From positions 1 through 10,393 of the forward strand of contig CAMCUJ010000029.1 in the NCBI GenBank assembly GCA_945878965.1: 10,393 bases of DNA, given 5' to 3'. Made by a program: the position numbers and the translations under genes. Under the pieces are notes generated by a model. The model had not been told where the DNA came from. It worked only from the letters and a program-made list of their open reading frames with translations, and ran no database searches. Source of the stretch: an uncultured Clostridia bacterium. Its GTDB lineage: Bacteria > Bacillota > Clostridia > Monoglobales > Monoglobaceae. Of the stretch, positions 634 through 10,293 are shown piece after piece (the stretch's first letter is position 1; the number at the start of each line of letters is the position of its first letter).

Positions 634-1812
634 TTAATCCGCATGAAGCGCATCAATAGGGTTAAGCTTTGACGCCTTATTTGCCGGTGCCCAGCCAAAG
701 AATATGCCGACCATTGCCGAGAATAAGAATGCTGCCAGCATTACCGAAACCTGAGGGAACGCATTTACACCCATCAACATTCCTATAGTGACCGAACCTG
801 CGATTCCCAGGACTATTCCGACCAGTCCTCCCATACAGCTTACAACCACAGACTCTATCAAAAACTGTGAAAGTATATTAAATCTTCTTGCACCAATCGC
901 CTTTCTTATACCTATCTCTCGTGTACGTTCCGTAACCGATACAAGCATAATATTCATAATTCCTATACCGCCGACTAAAAGTGAAATTCCTGCAATTCCG
1001 GCTGTTAAAAGCGTCATCGTACCGGTTATCTCGTCTATGGCGTCAAGCATACTTGAAACAGCAAAAACTCTGTAGCCGTCCTCATCGCCCAGTTTTTTAA
1101 ACAGAAAATTTTCAAGCATATCCGCTGCCTGCTCCGAAGACTCGGGAGTTGTTGCCCAAACAGTGTATGAACTTATCTTTGAAGTATTGAATAACAGTCT
1201 GCCTGCCGTATAAGGTATTACTACCAAATCATCATCGGAAGCTTCCTCAGAATCTGCTTTTTCCTCAAATACTCCGACTATTGTATAAATCTGTCCGTTA
1301 AGCTTAATCTGTTTATCTATGGGACTTTCAAATCCAAATAAATCCTGTGCATTATACGAACCGATTATTGCCACCTTACGTCTGTCACGTATATCAGAGC
1401 TGTTTATAAACCTGCCCTCTGAAATCTCTCTGTCCTTAATTGTAATATATTCCGGAGTCGTTCCTGTAACCGAAACAGAAGAATTGGTATTCATATACTT
1501 AACGGTTACTCCGCTTAAGGACATATTAGGTACAACATATTGTATATAATCAGGATTCTCCTCCGCAAATTCAAGAAGCTCTTCATATTCTACCGTTTTT
1601 GCCTTATTGTTTCCGGTAAGCATAACACTTATGCTGTTTGCACCAAGTGATGAAATCTGATCCGTAATACTTCCTGTTGAGCCCTGAACCACACTTACCA
1701 GTATAATTACCGCACAAACACCGATTATAATTCCGAGCATTGTCAAAAAAGTTCTGAGCTTGCTTGACATAATACTCTTCATACCCATTTTAAATGCCTG
1801 CGAAAAATTCAA
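634..1812 (-). CDS. MacB-type ABC transporter permease
   Basis: This 392-aa protein has the standard MacB/FtsX-like layout. There is one N-terminal membrane helix (about 21-44), a large extracytoplasmic domain (about 45-265, the MacB_PCD type), then three membrane helices (about 267-291, 322-346, 356-377). The family hallmark GIMNIMLVSVTERTREIGIRKAIGA-like segment lies at about 284-308, just after the second helix, and is the cytoplasmic coupling region that contacts the ATPase. Such permeases work as homodimers with a separate ATPase and act as mechanotransmission exporters rather than classic channels. The start is TTG, supported by AAAGGAAG at 1820-1827, 7 nt upstream; the first internal ATG (residue 9) has no comparable site. 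It is the third gene of the adaptor-ATPase-permease operon, 49 bp after the ATPase. The substrate is not predictable; relatives move peptides, lipids, antibiotics or lantibiotics. Confidence 0.93.
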   Translation of the reverse strand: MNFSQAFKMGMKSIMSSKLRTFLTMLGIIIGVCAVIILVSVVQGSTGSITDQISSLGANSISVMLTGNNKAKTVEYEELLEFAEENPDYIQYVVPNMSLSGVTVKYMNTNSSVSVTGTTPEYITIKDREISEGRFINSSDIRDRRKVAIIGSYNAQDLFGFESPIDKQIKLNGQIYTIVGVFEEKADSEEASDDDLVVIPYTAGRLLFNTSKISSYTVWATTPESSEQAADMLENFLFKKLGDEDGYRVFAVSSMLDAIDEITGTMTLLTAGIAGISLLVGGIGIMNIMLVSVTERTREIGIRKAIGARRFNILSQFLIESVVVSCMGGLVGIVLGIAGSVTIGMLMGVNAFPQVSVMLAAFLFSAMVGIFFGWAPANKASKLNPIDALHAD

Positions 1813-1819
1813 GCTATCA

Positions 1820-1827
1820 CTTCCTTT
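1820..1827 (-). promoter_or_regulatory. Ribosome binding site deciding a TTG start
   Basis: AAAGGAAG on the minus strand sits 7 nt before the TTG at 1812-1810. This is the evidence that the permease begins with TTG rather than with the ATG eight codons downstream. Confidence 0.65.
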
Positions 1828-1861
1828 ATCTGTTATTATTTAACAGAAATTTTCGTTTATT

Positions 1862-2596
1862 TTAAACATTAACCTCATTCTTATCACCGTCAATCAAACT
1901 GTCGAATACAATTTTTCCGTCCATAATTCTTATAATTCTCTCAGCCTCATGTGCTATTTTGTTATCATGAGTAATAAGAACAATAGTCTTTCCCTCCTTG
2001 TGAAGTTCCTTAAGCATCTCCAAAACCTCCGTACCGGTCTTTGAATCAAGTGCACCGGTCGGCTCATCTGCAAGAATCATAGGCGGTCTTGCCGCAAGCG
2101 CTCTTGCGATAGATACTCTCTGCTGCTGTCCTCCCGAAAGCTCCGACGGCTTATGATGACGTCTGTCATAAAGCCCTACACGACTAAGCGCTGTTTTTAT
2201 AAGCTCTTTTCTCTTTACTCCGGAAACCCCGGCATATATCAAAGGAAGCTCCACATTTTCCTCAACCGTAAGCTTGGGAAGCAGATTGTATTGTTGAAAT
2301 ATAAATCCTATCTTCTGATTTCTGATCTTTGCCTGTTCGTCATCTCTAAGCTTACTTACTTCTTTTCCGTCAATATAATATGTTCCGCTTGTCGGTGTAT
2401 CAAGACAGCCTATCATATTCATAAGCGTTGACTTTCCCGAACCGGACGGACCTATGATTGATACAAATTCCTTATGCTTAATCTTAACATTTACTCCGTT
2501 TAACGCTCTTACTTCGTTATCACCCATCTTATAGATTTTATACATATCAGAAATATCAATCATATATTCAGCGTTTACAGAATTCTTATCATCCAT
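1862..2596 (-). CDS. MacB-type ABC transporter ATP-binding protein
   Basis: This 244-aa ATPase belongs to the LolD/MacB/FtsE-like exporter group. Every nucleotide-binding motif is intact: Walker [10 protein letters not shown] (about 49-57), the Q-loop in [10 protein letters not shown] (about 99-108), signature LSGGQQQR (153-160), Walker [10 protein letters not shown] (173-181) with catalytic Glu, D-loop ALDSKTG, and H-loop His in LITHD (about 210). It should dimerise on the cytoplasmic face of the permease encoded 49 bp downstream and power it by ATP hydrolysis. The reading frame is open up to a TTG at 2620, but that codon has no good ribosome site. AGAAAGGA (2605-2612) sits 8 nt before the ATG at 2596, which I take as the start; the ATG at 2602 is too close to it. 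The gene begins 29 bp after the adaptor stop, so the two are clearly in one operon. Confidence 0.93.
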
Positions 2597-2604
2597 AACC
2601 ATAA

Positions 2605-2612
2605 TCCTTTCT
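2605..2612 (-). promoter_or_regulatory. Ribosome binding site deciding the ATPase start
   Basis: AGAAAGGA on the minus strand lies 8 nt before the ATG at 2596 but only 2 nt before the ATG at 2602, and it lies inside the frame if TTG 2620 were used. It therefore favours 2596. Confidence 0.55.
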
Positions 2613-2625
2613 GTCTGCAAAAACT

Positions 2626-4527
2626 TTATCGTGAAGATCCGCCGGACGAACCGCCGGAAGAGCCGCTTCTTTGACTGCTTCCGCCGCTGCGGTTTCCGCC
2701 ATTGCCACCGGGATGGTTAGCACCGCCGCCGGGAGCACCGCCGCCGGGAGCACCACCGCCCATTGCACCTGGGCCCATCATCATAAATGAATCGTTCTGA
2801 CTTGCAGCCGCAGGCATATAAGTAATTACATCGCCTTCATTTAGTCCTGACTTAATCTCTACATTGGTTCCGTCTGATATTCCAAGCTGTACTTCTCTAA
2901 GAACAAACCCTTCAGGAATTCCTGTTCCTTTATTTTTTCCGTCGGCATTTTTTGTATCGCCGTTTGGCATACCCGCCTCGGGTGCCTTTTCATTCGGCAT
3001 ATCACGCTGTGGTTCACCATTTGGCATATCAATGCTTGGCATTTCTTCCGATTTTCTTTCACCCTCAGGCATTCTATCTCGAGGTCTGTTCTTATCTTCT
3101 GAATTCGGTTCCGATGATTTAACCAAAACCTTAGCCGTTATACCGTTAGAACCTGTAAGTGCTTCCTCCGGAATTGTTATAACATCTTTTGCTTCTGCAA
3201 CAACAATGTTTGCATTAACATTCATTCCCGATTTAAGCTCACCCGGTTCTGCAATAGTTATTTCTACATCATAGGTTGTAACACCGTCGCCGGTTGAAAT
3301 ACCCTCTGCCGCAATGTTTGAAACAACACCGTCAAATGTCTTTCCGCTTATTGCGTCTGCGTCTACCACTGCAGTCTGACCAAGCTGAATATCCGATATA
3401 TCAAGCTCATCAACACTTATAATAAATTTAACACAGCTCATATCAGCAACAACCATCATTACGGTTTGCGAATTTGAATTGTCGATTTTATCGCCTACCT
3501 TACTGGTCTTTGTGATAACGGTACCCGAGATAGGAGATGTTATGGTATAATTTTCAAGATTCTTCATACTTGAACGAAGACTTAGTTCATTGTCTGCCAT
3601 ATTGATTTCATTACTGCGTTTCTCGTCCATAAGACTTTCATTTTCAAGAACCGCTATAAGCTGACCCTTTCTTACATAATCGCCTTCCTTAACATTAAGC
3701 GTTTTAACCGTACCGCCTACATCTGCTATAACCGAAGTTACTGTACCGTTTTCAATTGTTCCCGATGATGCTGAATAAACATCACCGCTGTTTGTATGTA
3801 CCGAAGCTGAAACTGTAGTTCCTATACCAAGCGCACCCGGATTAGGAACTGTAATTTCCACATTTCTGACGCTGCTTCCGTCCTGGGATGTACTTTCATT
3901 TGCCGCAAATTTATAGCTTACATAACCCTCAAGAGATGTCATATACATCGCACTTGTAAGAGTTACGGGATTTCCGACCGCAATCTTATCAAACTCACTT
4001 GCAAGAAACGGAACCTTAACCTTAAGCTCATCTGTATCTGTAATGGTTGCAACCTCACCGCTTGCACACTGTGCGGTTTCCTTTAGCTTCAAATTTCCCA
4101 AAACTCCCGAAGCCGGAGCATATATATTAAGCTTACTTATATCTTTAAGCGTATTATCTTGCGAAATCTTAGCTTTTTCTATACTGTTATTTGTTTTATC
4201 AATAGTAATCTGTGCATCCTCATCATCTATTCTGTAAAGCACATCATCTTCATTTACAAAATCACCTTCTTCAAAAGGTGCTTCTAATATTTCACCTTTT
4301 ACAAGTGCCGTTATTTCATATCTGTCATTTGGTTCAATTACTCCGCTCGCCTCAATTGTTTTAGTTATTGAACCTCTGCTTGCCGCAGCCTCAATATAAC
4401 CGCTGTCTTCCTGTTTAGCATTCTTAATTTTACTTACTGCTGCAGCTATAACAGTTCCGACTAAAGCAATAGCTATTATAACGGAAATCAATATTATAAC
4501 CCGTTTCTTAGTGAAGAATTTCTTCAT
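2626..4527 (-). CDS. Membrane-fusion (HlyD/MacA-type) adaptor with duplicated lipoyl unit
   Basis: This 633-aa protein is the extracytoplasmic adaptor of the MacAB-like pump. A basic start and one membrane helix (about 8-33) anchor it. Two successive lipoyl/barrel-sandwich plus beta-barrel units follow. Unit 1 spans about 50-246, with half-motifs near 71-101 (VKGEILEAPFEEGDFVNEDD) and 133-165 (YAPASGVLG). Unit 2 spans about 255-444, with half-motifs near 262-297 (NVKEGDYVRKGQLIAVLEN) and 326-360 (ITSPISGTVITK). The barrels match each other: VEITVPNPGALGIGTTVSA against VEITIAEPGELKSGMNVNA. A membrane-proximal domain (about 446-570) is split by a Pro/Met/Asp-rich insert (about 472-540), and the C terminus (about 585-633) is Gly/Ser-rich. 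Usual MacA-type adaptors are about 370-400 aa with one such unit. The start has AAAGGGG 10 nt upstream. It is the first gene of the operon. The adaptor assignment is firm; the purpose of the extra parts is unknown. Confidence 0.9.
   Translation of the reverse strand: MKKFFTKKRVIILISVIIAIALVGTVIAAAVSKIKNAKQEDSGYIEAAASRGSITKTIEASGVIEPNDRYEITALVKGEILEAPFEEGDFVNEDDVLYRIDDEDAQITIDKTNNSIEKAKISQDNTLKDISKLNIYAPASGVLGNLKLKETAQCASGEVATITDTDELKVKVPFLASEFDKIAVGNPVTLTSAMYMTSLEGYVSYKFAANESTSQDGSSVRNVEITVPNPGALGIGTTVSASVHTNSGDVYSASSGTIENGTVTSVIADVGGTVKTLNVKEGDYVRKGQLIAVLENESLMDEKRSNEINMADNELSLRSSMKNLENYTITSPISGTVITKTSKVGDKIDNSNSQTVMMVVADMSCVKFIISVDELDISDIQLGQTAVVDADAISGKTFDGVVSNIAAEGISTGDGVTTYDVEITIAEPGELKSGMNVNANIVVAEAKDVITIPEEALTGSNGITAKVLVKSSEPNSEDKNRPRDRMPEGERKSEEMPSIDMPNGEPQRDMPNEKAPEAGMPNGDTKNADGKNKGTGIPEGFVLREVQLGISDGTNVEIKSGLNEGDVITYMPAAASQNDSFMMMGPGAMGGGAPGGGAPGGGANHPGGNGGNRSGGSSQRSGSSGGSSGGSSR
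2720..2760 (-). repeat. 15-bp tandem repeat encoding Gly-Gly-Gly-Ala-Pro
   Basis: The plus-strand unit GCACCGCCGCCGGGA occurs twice exactly (2720-2734, 2735-2749), with a third partial copy carrying one mismatch (2750-2760). It lies in frame within the adaptor and encodes consecutive GGGAP units near the C terminus. It is much more GC-rich than its surroundings and looks like a slippage-prone minisatellite. Confidence 0.8.
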
Positions 4528-4689
4528 ATGAAATTTTCCCCTTTCCTTGACATTAAACTATAAATTATATATTTAGTTTATCATATAAATGTGAACACAT
4601 TGTGACTTATAAAAACATTTTTTAACTAATTAAATGTAAAACACTGCATTTATTATTGTACTTTTTAACCAATAAAATATAAAAAATTC
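4528..4689. promoter_or_regulatory. Upstream region of the mac operon, weak minus-strand promoter
   Basis: This very AT-rich stretch has no gene. AAAGGGG at 4538-4544 is the adaptor ribosome site. On the minus strand TATAAT (4564-4569) is an obvious -10, but the best -35, TTCACA (4590-4595), is 20 bp away, longer than the ideal 17. The -35 overlaps a small palindromic patch, TGTGAACACATTGTG (4590-4604), which could be an operator. Poor spacing together with a palindrome suggests an activator- or repressor-controlled promoter. This is inference from spacing only. Confidence 0.35.
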
Positions 4690-4718
4690 TTGACAAAACA
4701 GACTCAACATACTATAAT
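4690..4718 (+). promoter_or_regulatory. Consensus promoter of the riboswitch-antiporter transcript
   Basis: TTGACA (4690-4695), a 17-bp spacer, and TATAAT (4713-4718): a perfect match to the housekeeping sigma consensus. Transcription should start near 4725, directly at the 5' edge of the riboswitch. Such a strong promoter fits a gene controlled after initiation by transcription attenuation. Confidence 0.88.
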
Positions 4719-4725
4719 AATTACT

Positions 4726-4806
4726 AAGGGAATGAGGCTCTCCCGTGACCTTTTGTCAAAACCGCAAATTTACAAATCAACTTGATTTTAATGCTGATGG
4801 CTTCTG
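4726..4806 (+). promoter_or_regulatory. Fluoride riboswitch aptamer (crcB motif)
   Basis: The leader matches the crcB-motif fold. P1 is GGGA (4728-4731) with UCCC (4741-4744), closing the loop AUGAGGCUC. A short optional hairpin follows, UGAC (4746-4749) with GUCA (4755-4758). Then come the conserved AAACCGC and a distal hairpin: GCA (4764-4766) with UGC (4792-4794), and AAAUC (4774-4778) with GAUUU (4784-4788). The 3' segment is GCUGAUGGCUUCUGUG. The pseudoknot forms between loop GAGGCU (4734-4739) and GGCUUC (4799-4804), with two G-U pairs. Compared from memory with the Thermotoga petrophila aptamer (GGGCGAUGAGGCC and GCUGAUGGCCUCUACUG), the linchpin and Mg-phosphate positions A6, U7, G8, U38, A40, U41, G42 and U48 correspond to A4732, U4733, G4734, U4795, A4797, U4798, G4799 and U4805, all conserved. 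It should sense fluoride bound through Mg ions. Confidence 0.87.
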
Positions 4807-4836
4807 TGAGAAATCACGGGAGTATCAGCTTTTTTT
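4793..4836 (+). terminator. Intrinsic terminator, expression platform of the fluoride riboswitch
   Basis: GCTGAT (4793-4798) pairs with ATCAGC (4824-4829). Inside it CTTCTGTGA (4801-4809) pairs with TCACGGGAG (4814-4822) around a GAAA tetraloop, with two G-U pairs. Seven T residues follow (4830-4836). The 5' arm contains the pseudoknot strand GGCUUC (4799-4804) and the linchpin bases, so the fluoride-bound aptamer and the terminator are mutually exclusive. Fluoride should therefore turn the downstream gene on, as in known crcB-motif switches. Confidence 0.88.
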
Positions 4837-4873
4837 GCGTATGAATATATAATTTTTGGAAGGAATGATCTTA

Positions 4874-6049
4874 ATGCTATTAAGTCTTGGAATTATTTTT
4901 ATTTTCGGTATTATTCTTGGTACTATTTTTGAAAAACTCAGAATGCCGAAGCTGCTCGGAATGCTAATTTTGGGAATTGTAACAGGTCCGTACTGCCTTA
5001 ATATAATAGATGAAAGCGTTTTATCAATATCATCGGAATTAAGGAGAATAGCACTTGTAATTATACTTACACGTGCGGGACTTAATCTTAACATATCCGA
5101 CCTTAAAAAAATAGGCAGACCGGCATTTCTTCTCTGCTTTGTTCCGGCTGTTTTTGAAATTGCGGGAATTTCGATACTTGCGCCAATCCTCCTTAAAATT
5201 TCAGTCAGCGAAGCGCTTGTTTTGGGAGCGGTTCTTGCCGCTGTTTCACCGGCTGTAATAGTTCCGAAAATGCTTACGCTTATGGAAAACGGATACGGCA
5301 AAGATAAATCAATTCCACAGATGCTGCTTGCCGGAGCCTCGGTTGATGATGTAATAGTAATAGTTCTGTTTGGCATATTTACAGAGATGTTAAGCGGAGA
5401 TAATGCAGCACTAATCAGCCTTGCTAAAATCCCTGTATCTGTAATTCTCGGAACAGCAGTCGGAATAATCTGCGGAATTATATTATCCTACATATTCAAA
5501 TCAAAAAAGCTAAGCATAAACGAAAAGGTACTAATAACACTTTCTGCATCGTTTTTATTGCTTGCGCTCGAAGATAAGCTTACAGGTATTATAACAATAT
5601 CCGCACTTCTTTCAATAATGATACTTGGTATAACACTCAATATCAAGGACAGCGACACTTCAAAACAACTATCCGCATCATTTTCGGGGCTTTGGAGCGG
5701 AGCGGAAATACTGTTATTCGTATTGGTAGGAGCAAGTGTTGACGTAAGCTATGCACTCAATGCCGGAATTACAGTAATCATATTAATTCTTCTTGCATTA
5801 ATTTTCAGAATGGCAGGAGTATTTTTATGTATGCTTAAAACGCCACTTAACAAAAAGGAACGAATATTCTGTATGATAAGCTATACACCGAAGGCAACCG
5901 TTCAGGCGGCAATAGGCTCAATTCCGATTTCAATGGGACTTTCGTGCGGAAACATAATTCTTACCGCCGCAGTATGCGCAATACTTATAACCGCACCGCT
6001 TGGTGCGTTTATGATTGAGCTTACATATAAACGGCTACTTTCACATTGA
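4874..6049 (+). CDS. Cation:proton antiporter (CPA family), fluoride-controlled
   Basis: This 391-aa, very hydrophobic protein has about a dozen membrane segments and the Na+/H+ exchanger fold (PF00999 type). Recognisable landmarks are the N-terminal helix with KLRMPKLLGMLILGIVTGPY (about 21-40), LVIILTRAGLNL (about 61-72), the unwound-helix segment AAVSPAVIVP (about 122-131), the ion-binding ASVDDVIVI with Asp158-Asp159, and YTPKATVQAAIG with Lys340. A double Asp plus a Lys in the later helix is typical of electrogenic antiporters such as NhaA, unlike the Asn-Asp/Arg pattern of many electroneutral CPA1 members. There is no C-terminal TrkA-N regulatory domain. The frame is open from a TTG at 4856, but GGAAGGA (4858-4864) lies 9 nt before the ATG at 4874, which I choose. 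It is the only gene behind the fluoride riboswitch, so its role is probably fluoride or associated pH/ion stress. The transported ion cannot be read from the sequence. Confidence 0.9.
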   Translation: MLLSLGIIFIFGIILGTIFEKLRMPKLLGMLILGIVTGPYCLNIIDESVLSISSELRRIALVIILTRAGLNLNISDLKKIGRPAFLLCFVPAVFEIAGISILAPILLKISVSEALVLGAVLAAVSPAVIVPKMLTLMENGYGKDKSIPQMLLAGASVDDVIVIVLFGIFTEMLSGDNAALISLAKIPVSVILGTAVGIICGIILSYIFKSKKLSINEKVLITLSASFLLLALEDKLTGIITISALLSIMILGITLNIKDSDTSKQLSASFSGLWSGAEILLFVLVGASVDVSYALNAGITVIILILLALIFRMAGVFLCMLKTPLNKKERIFCMISYTPKATVQAAIGSIPISMGLSCGNIILTAAVCAILITAPLGAFMIELTYKRLLSH

Positions 6050-6096: not shown

Positions 6097-6125
6097 TTGA
6101 CAAAAGCGAAATAATAGAATATAAT
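6097..6125 (+). promoter_or_regulatory. Consensus promoter of smpB
   Basis: TTGACA (6097-6102), a 17-bp spacer, and TATAAT (6120-6125), again a perfect housekeeping consensus. The predicted start near 6132 leaves a leader of about 43 nt. smpB is therefore expressed independently of the fluoride switch upstream. No terminator is visible between the antiporter stop and this promoter, so read-through could add to it. Confidence 0.85.
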
Positions 6126-6872: not shown

Positions 6873-6900
6873 TACCGCACAATTATAGTGCGGTAATTTT
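6873..6900. terminator. Hairpin overlapping the glycosyltransferase stop codon, possible bidirectional terminator
   Basis: TACCGCAC (6873-6880) pairs with GTGCGGTA (6888-6895) around AATTATA. On the plus strand AATTTT follows directly; on the minus strand a T-run starts about eight bases later. The minus-strand stop codon of the 776-aa glycosyltransferase (6883-6885) lies in the loop. It probably ends the glycosyltransferase operon and backs up the smpB terminator. Confidence 0.55.
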
Positions 6901-9213
6901 CTCAAAAAGCTCAACAGCATCATTTATATTGCAAACTCCAAACTTGGATGCATCAAGCGTAAGTGAATCATCATCACCAAACCCCTCTTTATAGGTCTTT
7001 TTTATACTTCCTGAAATTTCACTTGAATCCGGCTTGACAGTTTTAAACTCTTTTGGCTCAATCATAGGTTTATATATGTTTTCATCAAACCACTTGAGAA
7101 ATTCTTCACCATGCTTAGCCGCTGTAAATCTGAAGTAGTGCAGCTTTTTATCAAGCATTATATCATCATATCTAAAATTACCGGCCAACTTTTTAAACAT
7201 TTTTTTCCAATCAGTTAATTGTTCAACTTTATCCATGGATATAATACCTATGGTCACCGCTCTTAATAAACTATTAAACAAAGAACTCGTATCAGTACTT
7301 ATTTCCGGAAGCAATCTTTCGGTTTTAGACATAGAAAATCCGCCAATATTATTGGTTTTATACATATCAGCCATTCTTACAGCCTCATCAGCAACATTAT
7401 CGGATACTTTATTAGCGTTAAATCCCTCTGAACTGCTTGTCATTCCGGCAATTGTAATAGGATAATTAACATTAAGAACCTCTTTATTAATTATAGAATT
7501 TATCACTCCTATATAAATATCCTGACATATTCCGTTCCATAAATAACCTGTCTTGTCAAGAAGCGTTTCAAAATATGAACGCCTGAAGCCCGAATTTATA
7601 TAAAGCATTGGCATAAGATACATCAAGTCTTTATTTTCATTAACAGCCGCAAGCAAAGCAATAAAAGGTGAACTTTTTTCGTAAACTATGTTATCCTTTT
7701 TATAACACTTCGGAATTATAAATTGGTTTGCTTGTCCGTTATTAAATCCCGGCCATACGTAAAAGCCTCTGTCCCATTGTATTATCTCATCATTTGGGTT
7801 CTCCTTTAAAACCCTGCTTAAGGCTTCAAGTCCCCACGGAAGTACTCCGTCATCTGAGCCTATAGCAAAAATAAATTCACCTTTAGCCATCAAATAAGCA
7901 TACTCAAAGCTTTTTGGAAGATGTAAATCTCTCGGAGTTTTATAATATTTAATTTTAGGGTCATTAAGCTCCTTGCATAAATCATATACTGCTGTATTTC
8001 CATTGGTTGAATTATCACTTACAACTATTTCATAACTGCCCTTAAATCTCTGATTTAAACAAGTCTTAATAGTATGTCTTAAGCTTACGGCAGAATTTCT
8101 CGCCGGAATAACAATCGAAAATTCGCATTCAGCCGGAGCCTCAATTGCCTTCTGTGCATCAATGCCATAAATCATACTTATATATGACATATAACTTCCC
8201 GCCCAGCCAAATGCTAAATATTCCTCAGTTCCGTCCGACATAAAATTAGATAATCTCTGCATCTGTTTTCTGAGAGCATCACGCTCCCGCAAATCATCCA
8301 TTAATGCTCCGCTGCACAAAACCGCAGCAAATTTTTTATCGGTATATTCCTTAATTACATAATCAATAATTTCAGCTCTGTTATCTCCTATACTCTTGCC
8401 GTTTAATATGATATCAACCGGACTGATTATTATAACCCCTTCATTATCCTGTGCATTTTCAAGACTTATCCCCACTGTATCTCTCATATCAATTTCATAA
8501 TCCACCGGACACTCAATAGGTTTGTCAATCAAAAACACCTTCTTTCCAAGAATAGATAAAATTGTTGCCGCCACCTCACAGTCACTTGTATCATTCTCAG
8601 ATACTGCAATTATAAACGTATCATACTCATCGGAATTTACATACTCATCAAGAAATCCGAAGTTAGGCTGTGAGTTTATAAAATTCCTCGGAATAAAGCC
8701 TATATTCCTTTTCGTCAGCAAATATGCCGCCAAACAATAACAAACATAATTAGCTATAATAAAATACCCATCTTGTAACTTTAATAATGACTCATTCGAT
8801 TCAGTATTATCCAAAAACTCATCTTTAATTTTATCCAAGCTGTTAAACTCAGCATTTATCTCATCATTATATTTTTGATACGGCTTACCAAAGCATATCC
8901 ACGGATTAAATTTATTTCTTTTTGAATCAGACACATCATTATATGCCATATTCATTCTCAAATAAACGTTTGACATTTCTTCAACGCCGCTATATCTATA
9001 TAAAGGCCACATCTTTCTTGCCATTAATTTATAAACCTCAGAAAACGGCTTTTTTAATTTAAGCATTGCCTCTGCTTTTGCAACGAACCACATAAGCCTT
9101 ACAGGCTTAATCTTGAAAAGCTCGTCTAATTCTTTAATTGTATTTTCAGCATTTTCACTTGTTAAGTTTTTTCTTAAGCCTTCTATTTTATCAAGATATT
9201 GCTTTTCGTTCAT
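6883..9213 (-). CDS. Large multidomain protein with family-2 glycosyltransferase domain
   Basis: This 776-aa protein has a GT-A, family-2 glycosyltransferase domain in its middle (about 365-590). It begins with FSIVIPARNSAVSLRHTIKTCL, continues with EIVVSDNSTNG, and has FAIGSDDG with Asp454-Asp455 as the metal- and nucleotide-sugar-binding motif. A later CQDIYIG (Asp565) may hold the catalytic base. Residues 1-360 are not a family I can name. They include an alpha-helical N terminus (about 1-170) and an alpha/beta stretch (about 196-305: TFIIAVSEND, KKVFLID, GVIIISP, FAAVLCSG) resembling a Rossmann-like fold. Residues about 600-776 are a largely helical, charged tail without a recognised domain. 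It has no signal peptide or membrane helix, so it is cytoplasmic. AAAGGAG sits about 6 nt before the ATG at 9213. It lies 24 bp after the next glycosyltransferase gene, in one operon. Sugar donor and acceptor are unknown. Confidence 0.85.
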   Translation of the reverse strand: MNEKQYLDKIEGLRKNLTSENAENTIKELDELFKIKPVRLMWFVAKAEAMLKLKKPFSEVYKLMARKMWPLYRYSGVEEMSNVYLRMNMAYNDVSDSKRNKFNPWICFGKPYQKYNDEINAEFNSLDKIKDEFLDNTESNESLLKLQDGYFIIANYVCYCLAAYLLTKRNIGFIPRNFINSQPNFGFLDEYVNSDEYDTFIIAVSENDTSDCEVAATILSILGKKVFLIDKPIECPVDYEIDMRDTVGISLENAQDNEGVIIISPVDIILNGKSIGDNRAEIIDYVIKEYTDKKFAAVLCSGALMDDLRERDALRKQMQRLSNFMSDGTEEYLAFGWAGSYMSYISMIYGIDAQKAIEAPAECEFSIVIPARNSAVSLRHTIKTCLNQRFKGSYEIVVSDNSTNGNTAVYDLCKELNDPKIKYYKTPRDLHLPKSFEYAYLMAKGEFIFAIGSDDGVLPWGLEALSRVLKENPNDEIIQWDRGFYVWPGFNNGQANQFIIPKCYKKDNIVYEKSSPFIALLAAVNENKDLMYLMPMLYINSGFRRSYFETLLDKTGYLWNGICQDIYIGVINSIINKEVLNVNYPITIAGMTSSSEGFNANKVSDNVADEAVRMADMYKTNNIGGFSMSKTERLLPEISTDTSSLFNSLLRAVTIGIISMDKVEQLTDWKKMFKKLAGNFRYDDIMLDKKLHYFRFTAAKHGEEFLKWFDENIYKPMIEPKEFKTVKPDSSEISGSIKKTYKEGFGDDDSLTLDASKFGVCNINDAVELFEKITAL

Positions 9214-9237
9214 ATTATGCTCCTTTAACTTATTTAG

Positions 9238-10293
9238 TTAAATTTCAAGAGGTATAAAACCCTCCGGAGGGTCATAAGACTTAGTTCTTGAAAGAGGATT
9301 TTCACCCTGTATTTCATTTAACATATCATCAAGCTCTTTACCGCTAATAGGTATACATTTCATAAGCTTTTTATATGTAATATCCTCCACAATATCACGC
9401 TTATATACAGGTGCAAGAAGCAAATATCTGTGTGCCGCATCATTAAGCTTATTTTGCAGCATCTTAAAAGCATATCTTAAGCACATTGAACCAAGCTTCT
9501 CGACAGCCTCATTATATCGTGCTGCCGGCTTTGTCATTCCAAAAGCCTTTGAAACATCAACAAATGCATTTATAAGCTGATAATGCTCGGTTATTCCCAA
9601 AAGATTTTTTTCCGATTCATTGGTTTCATTTCCGCTATGTACACGATAGTTGCATAACGGTTCTTTAATATAAGCGATATCGCCTGCCATCGAAAATAAA
9701 AAGTTTTCATACCAATCACCGGCAACATTCCATATTCTTCTGTATTGGCTTGTTTGAGAAAATGAGGATAAACGTGTGATTCTTTGTCCTGGAATTGCAA
9801 TACCCGCCATCATAAACACTGCCGCCTGATCTTCTCCCTTAATAATACAGCTTTGATTATAAAACGGCTGAGTTTTTATAATATTTCCATTTTCATCAAT
9901 CTCATTTCTATGAGTCATAACCATTGAAACATTCGGATATTCATCAAAGACAGATATGCATTTTTCTATGAATGTAGGCTCAATACTATCATCACTTGCA
10001 AGTGTATAAAGAAATTCTCCTTCAGCATCTCGAGTTGCAAGCTGTGAATTTCTATCACTGCCTAAATTTCTTTTATTATCAGTAACATTAAAATATACTC
10101 CACGCTCTTTAAACTTTTCTCTGTAACTCAAAGCTATATCATAAGAATTATCCGTAGAATTATTATCTCTGAAATATACTTCAATATTTTGATATGTCTG
10201 ATTTAAAACACTATCTAAACAATTTCTTAAATAATGTCCATAATTATAATTTGGTATGCATATACTTACCAAAGGTGAATTTTCTTTCATCAT
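9238..10293 (-). CDS. Family-2 glycosyltransferase
   Basis: This 351-aa cytoplasmic enzyme has its GT-A domain at the N terminus. It opens with VSICIPNYNYGHYLRNCLDSVLNQ-type sequence (about 9-32), then VYFRDNNSTDNS (about 39-50), and the metal-binding ASDDSIEP with Asp101-Asp102. A later WNVAGDWYENFLF (about 188-200) is placed where the catalytic base usually sits, followed by CNYRVHSGNET (about 214-224), a common family-2 closing motif. The C-terminal 130 residues are helical and may bind the acceptor. The family transfers sugars from nucleotide-sugar donors with inversion. AGAGGG (10301-10306) lies 7 nt before the ATG at 10293; a second ATG follows directly. The gene starts 12 bp after the stop of the upstream gene and is followed within 24 bp by the larger glycosyltransferase, so the set probably builds one glycan. 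The target (capsule, cell-wall polymer or glycoprotein) is not evident. Confidence 0.92.
   Translation of the reverse strand: MMKENSPLVSICIPNYNYGHYLRNCLDSVLNQTYQNIEVYFRDNNSTDNSYDIALSYREKFKERGVYFNVTDNKRNLGSDRNSQLATRDAEGEFLYTLASDDSIEPTFIEKCISVFDEYPNVSMVMTHRNEIDENGNIIKTQPFYNQSCIIKGEDQAAVFMMAGIAIPGQRITRLSSFSQTSQYRRIWNVAGDWYENFLFSMAGDIAYIKEPLCNYRVHSGNETNESEKNLLGITEHYQLINAFVDVSKAFGMTKPAARYNEAVEKLGSMCLRYAFKMLQNKLNDAAHRYLLLAPVYKRDIVEDITYKKLMKCIPISGKELDDMLNEIQGENPLSRTKSYDPPEGFIPLEI

Follow-up and report, generated by a model that had tools for sequence, protein, structure and literature searches.

The analyzed window is a stretch of 10,393 nucleotides from an uncultured Clostridia bacterium of the Monoglobaceae (contig CAMCUJ010000029.1). 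It carries, on its forward strand, an antiporter gene preceded by a consensus promoter and a structured leader, with the following features:

4690..4718, + strand: consensus sigma-70-type promoter, TTGACA-17-TATAAT (promoter scan and sequence)
4728..4806, + strand: predicted fluoride aptamer (RF01734, 32.6 bits over 4719-4813; held-out clade model, 54.2 bits)
4728..4744, + strand: P1 hairpin, 4728-4731 paired with 4741-4744, AUGAGGC in the loop (sequence, pair counts)
4734..4739, + strand: pseudoknot 5' strand, GAGGCU (pair counts, sequence)
4746..4758, + strand: small extra hairpin, 4746-4749 paired with 4755-4758, inserted with respect to the RF01734 model (covariation in relatives)
4764..4794, + strand: P3, 4764-4766 paired with 4792-4794, loop of 25 nt (RF01734 alignment, pair counts)
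4799..4804, + strand: pseudoknot 3' strand, GGCUUC, common to the terminator 5' arm (pair counts)
4793..4836, + strand: predicted intrinsic terminator, arms 4793-4809 and 4814-4829, GAAA loop, U7 at 4830-4836 (fold, covariation, shuffles)
4858..4864, + strand: Shine-Dalgarno-like GGAAGGA, 3' of and outside the terminator (sequence)
4874..6049, + strand: antiporter gene, 391 aa, PF00999, DD motif, nearest structures SLC9B2/NHA2 (domain and structure-chain searches)

The first-pass annotation had described this leader as a fluoride riboswitch lying between a perfect promoter and an antiporter gene. The promoter is indeed a full TTGACA-17-TATAAT at 4690-4718, and the crcB signatures AUGAGGC, AAACCGC and GCUGAUGGCUUCUGUG all lie where that annotation had placed them. 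The pseudoknot partners that it proposed, 4734-4739 and 4799-4804, were borne out as six pairs, two of them G-U. P3 consists of only three pairs closing a long, AT-rich loop, which could make for a weaker aptamer. Riboswitch and terminator together span 4728-4836, and the antiporter start (4874) lies 37 bases further on.

The same annotation had suggested scoring the leader with the Rfam crcB covariance model. An Rfam scan of the whole window at the gathering threshold gave no match. In an E-value scan of 4650-4950, RF01734 matched 4719-4813 over its full length (model 1-64) with 32.6 bits and an E-value of 1.6e-7, which supports family membership though the score is 1.4 bits short of the Rfam curated cut-off of 34, the window being the sole case under this cut-off among 23 genomes with a switch-antiporter pair. 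The low score is probably due to two insertions: 12 nt are added behind P1, and P3 contains a stretch of 24 nt in place of the model's 4. When a clade covariance model was trained on the leaders of 22 relatives and not on the window, the window scored 54.2 bits (E 5.8e-16). This model scored 38.9-77.1 bits on 12 more hairpin-bearing leaders, picked by eye out of 30 class-sample leaders, and 14.2-19.2 bits on the four scored among the remaining 18. It found nothing, even with E allowed up to 1, in the ten antiporter loci that have no Rfam match. Within the window's genome (1.52 Mb, 79% complete), the runner-up of seven RF01734 matches reached only E 0.277. At E up to 10, RF01734 gave matches in all 14 control genomes, above the cut-off in 4 of them; hence, later genome searches were run at E ≤0.001. 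Two other Rfam matches in the scan of 4650-4950, snoR64a (E 1.7) and MIR1919 (E 7.4), were taken as chance, and a tRNA/tmRNA scan of the window returned none. On the basis of these sequence comparisons, membership of the leader in the fluoride (crcB, RF01734) riboswitch family was considered confirmed.

Conservation was then assessed on an alignment of 23 leaders, i.e., every leader with an RF01734 match, the window included. Aptamer pairs were formed in 90.9% of the cells (P1 96.7%, pseudoknot 94.9%, P3 97.0%) and terminator pairs in 86.1%. Doubly changed cells numbered 33 in the aptamer against 8.6 in shuffles and 21 in the terminator against 7.5, counts that are inflated by the kinship of the leaders. 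Changes on both sides affected one pair in P1, two in the pseudoknot and one in P3; in the terminator they affected five pairs, a number reached by 78 of 500 shuffles. When the partners were slid by 1-3 columns, pairing fell to at most 61.0% for the aptamer and 55.1% for the terminator. The window itself bears a compensatory change, the pseudoknot pair 4738-4800 being C-G in place of the U-A of 21 of the 23 leaders. The fluoride/Mg-site and linchpin bases, of which equivalents had been claimed at first pass, are all there (4732-4734, 4797-4799 and 4805), and the equivalents of A6, U7, G8, A40, U41, G42 and U48 are invariant in 23/23 leaders. We presume that A6, U7, G8 and G42 number onto 4732-4734 and 4799. 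The linchpin A40-U48 and U41 are named in the excerpts of PMC11077080, where the U41A mutant of the B. cereus switch is unresponsive; its counterpart in the window would be U4798A. The promoter is not constant: the consensus with all 12 bases occurs in 4 of the 23 leaders, and the best promoter in leaders L012, L028 and L030 still has 4-5 mismatches.

An inserted covarying segment after P1 is carried by 22 of the 23 leaders, L036 being without it. Its pairs are formed in 77.3% of the cells and four of the five show changes on both sides; the outermost, between columns 18 and 40, occurs in only 8/22 leaders and is absent from the window. By eye, 12 of the 30 class-sample leaders bear this extra hairpin, next to an antiporter in 10 cases, Fluc in one and an unassigned gene in one. 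Lying between P1 and the AAACCGC segment, the extra hairpin is a mark of one aptamer subgroup (with leaders in L008-L039). In the excerpts of PMC13273304, the covariation motif of RF01734 comprises just P1, the pseudoknot and P3. As we read the excerpted part of PMC8004769 on the Bacillus cereus switch, its P2 and P3 are the Rfam-named P3 and pseudoknot, and its P2 differs from the extra hairpin found here. No description of the latter was found in the excerpts returned by a literature search, and one may still exist.

The overlap of the terminator 5' arm with the pseudoknot, put forward at first pass, also stands: arm 4793-4809 takes in 4799-4804, making terminator and pseudoknot mutually exclusive, and the terminator covaries. 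The terminator piece alone folds to -22.7 kcal/mol, and in 300 shuffles of 4719-4840 that preserved dinucleotides, no hairpin ahead of a T run was as stable, the best reaching -13.1. In all 23 leaders, the piece from the P3 3'-strand GCU to the T run, a cut chosen by the analyst, forms one hairpin with that G in the first pair. A simple terminator scan of 4400-5200 called none and missed the one at 4793-4836. Energy minimization of the full leader (4724-4837), which takes no account of pseudoknots or of the order of folding during transcription, gave the terminator form without P1 (z -2.8). According to the excerpts of PMC11077080 and PMC13273304, the pseudoknot strand is common to aptamer and terminator and fluoride blocks the change to the terminator; the excerpted text of PMC2864571 (Genome Biology 2010) predicts that such overlaps mean higher expression with more ligand. 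Because of the terminator/pseudoknot overlap and this published mechanism, fluoride-dependent read-through is expected. The ribosome-binding site is downstream of the terminator, which makes transcription the most likely level of control. Region 4728-4836 is thus very probably a transcriptional fluoride ON riboswitch ahead of the antiporter, its binding of fluoride, the ON direction and its role in the cell being extrapolated from published members.

Transcription would start a few bases upstream of P1, judging from the promoter, and the aptamer (P1, pseudoknot, P3) would fold first. Binding of fluoride would keep strand 4799-4804 locked in the pseudoknot, so that the terminator stays open and RNA polymerase enters the antiporter gene. 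When fluoride is absent, the pseudoknot would be ousted by the 3' arm 4814-4829, the hairpin would shut and transcription would stop near 4836. The antiporter would then probably aid pH and cation balance upon HF entry.

The gene behind the leader was indeed that of an antiporter, with PF00999 (Na_H_Exchanger) matching at 155.3 bits against a cut-off of 26.2. The closest solved chains were those of SLC9B2/NHA2 (E 5.9e-39), followed by Na(+)/H(+) antiporter 1 of 4czb (E 1e-8), which we take to be NapA. The DD motif marks CPA2. It was found in the window antiporter and in 28 of 30 others checked, partial L025 and L038 being left out; the two that the pattern did not match are those of L029 and L034. 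None of the NCBIfam antiporter cut-offs was reached: the best model, PRK05326, gave 76.5 bits against 355, and TIGR00932 (CPA2) 55.3 against 238.3. The protein is accordingly described only as CPA2-like from its sequence. A second perfect TTGACA-17-TATAAT stands at 6097-6125, ahead of smpB (ORF from 6151). With such a promoter of its own, smpB is probably not part of the antiporter transcript.

Relatives were profiled by a contig search with the antiporter, yielding 31 loci, of which 30 could be assessed, as L025 starts inside the antiporter gene without upstream DNA. In 21/31 loci the switch preceded the antiporter in the same orientation, 15 of 20 loci showing it at the gathering cut-off and 6 of the other 11 at E 0.01; upstream DNA was present in nine of the ten loci without a switch. 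At genus level, the search covered the window's own genome only. Of 38 genomes in the window's family, the switch occurs in two, both with a close antiporter; a third has a distant one (31% identity). Among 196 genomes sampled from the class, with completeness of at least 85% except that the window's own was added, the switch was found in 38, at 49 places (E 1e-5, with stricter filters that lose weak matches). Among the best-scoring 30 of these, at most one per genome, 18 had antiporter homologues (at least 46% identity) as neighbors, 5 Fluc and 3 CLC-F-like genes, and in four no antiporter, Fluc or CLC-F-like gene was detected by tblastn in the fetched stretch.

In each of the 23 switch-antiporter genomes, which were selected for having the pair and from which its frequency cannot be derived, RF01734 matched exactly once (E 0.001). 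Fluc was found in only one of them, against 42 of the 196 class-sample genomes; as the two groups were drawn differently, a lack of Fluc special to switch-antiporter genomes is only suggestive. CLC proteins occurred in 12 of the 23, at 13 places. The GSGIP/GREGP motifs are assumed here to separate chloride types from CLC-F. By this reading five CLCs, that of the window genome among them, look like chloride types and six look CLC-F-like, two more (L052 and L053) being undecided. With these two counted as CLC-F, neither Fluc nor a CLC-F-like exporter was found by these searches in 14/23 genomes, seven of which carry titles of isolate assemblies, namely two of Proteiniclasticum ruminis and one each of Velocimicrobium porci, Anaerocolumna aminovalerica, Fusibacter bizertensis, Finegoldia magna and Ezakiella coagulans. 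Antiporter-only genomes were not found described in the excerpts returned by the literature search, and such descriptions may exist nonetheless.

Taken to its furthest, this pattern would mean that in many Bacillota one NHA2-like antiporter is the whole riboswitch-controlled response, replacing the exporters, conferring resistance alone and possibly moving fluoride, which we regard as unlikely. The narrower proposal that the antiporter itself is the cells' fluoride exporter, and not just a pH/cation balancer, is compatible with an ON switch and draws on the antiporter being the sole switch target found in 23/23 genomes and on the 14 without a known exporter. It nevertheless appears quite improbable, as the protein's domain is that of a cation/proton antiporter and the DD motif is present, several of the genomes are MAGs and maybe incomplete (79% completeness for that of the window), other exporters may exist, and Fluc is present in just a minority of the class sample anyway.

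As for the leader, a decayed switch could be envisaged, in which the terminator works, the insertion-bearing aptamer is deaf to fluoride and the leader merely attenuates. The sub-threshold Rfam score, alone of its kind among the 23 genomes, and the long P3 loop would fit such a decay. However, the fluoride-site and linchpin equivalents are retained, the C4738-G4800 change preserves the pseudoknot, the held-out clade score is high, and the same-family relative L039, whose P3 loop is lengthened too, still reaches 40.9 bits with RF01734, making decay very improbable. A second antiterminator, in which 4814-4822 pairs with 4740-4748 and breaks P1, yielding an inverted or leaky response, was set aside as barely credible: its nine perfect Watson-Crick pairs (-15.6 kcal/mol, against -10.5 when this arm pairs with 4801-4809 as in the terminator), its whole-leader fold of -28.7 against -32.1 and the window's own-pair duplex of -16.8, equaled in 2/529 own and cross-species pairs, itself included, are outweighed by the absence of conservation across leaders (pairing in 58.5% of the cells, compared with 60.0% after shuffling; duplexes within a leader averaging -5.2 and those across species -5.5; a strong duplex in just the window and L015 of the 23) and by the terminator being the predicted minimum fold. 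This pairing is treated as incidental or as local tuning. In L015 (2390-2480), the terminator 3' arm strongly complements the P1 3' strand (-15.8 kcal/mol).

The transcriptional ON switch thus retained resembles the RF01734 switches of B. cereus and T. petrophila in P1, pseudoknot, P3 and conserved site bases, as well as in the pseudoknot strand lying within the terminator 5' arm. Compared with the RF01734 model, it adds the 12-nt small-hairpin insert after P1 and has 24 nt instead of 4 in the P3 loop. The history of this riboswitch class is recounted in PMC7266159, as far as its excerpts go, and those of PMC11139923 rank Na+/H+ antiporters next after exporters among the riboswitch-linked classes. 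The excerpted text of PMC11477304 describes C. difficile CD0656-7, a CLC and NhaP-type pair under a fluoride switch. There, as in the window, an antiporter is under a fluoride riboswitch; however, the CLC gene comes first and the antiporter second in one apparent operon, whereas in the window the antiporter is directly behind the switch and the downstream smpB has its own consensus promoter. The window protein shares PF00999 and the DD motif with CPA2/NHA antiporters (SLC9B2/NHA2; 4czb), and differs from SLC9B2/NHA2 in being bacterial, 391 aa long and under every NCBIfam cut-off. As the ON-switch anatomy is known and antiporters are a known target class, the finding is ordinary. What it contributes is a new member with a long aptamer that the Rfam cut-off misses, and a set of genomes with the antiporter as lone switch target and no known exporter seen, in which the role of the antiporter in fluoride tolerance could be tested with no exporter to interfere.

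Elsewhere in the window, genes for a membrane-fusion protein, an ABC ATPase and a MacB/FtsX permease follow one another on the reverse strand (634-4527), with Pro, Met, Gly and Ser abundant in the long tail of the membrane-fusion protein. Beside these HlyD/ABC/MacB-type genes, the divergent intergenic region holds an AT-rich inverted repeat (4552-4590), a possible operator. Also on the reverse strand (6883-10293) are two family-2 glycosyltransferase genes, the 776-aa product having its Pfam match at residues 366-496 only.
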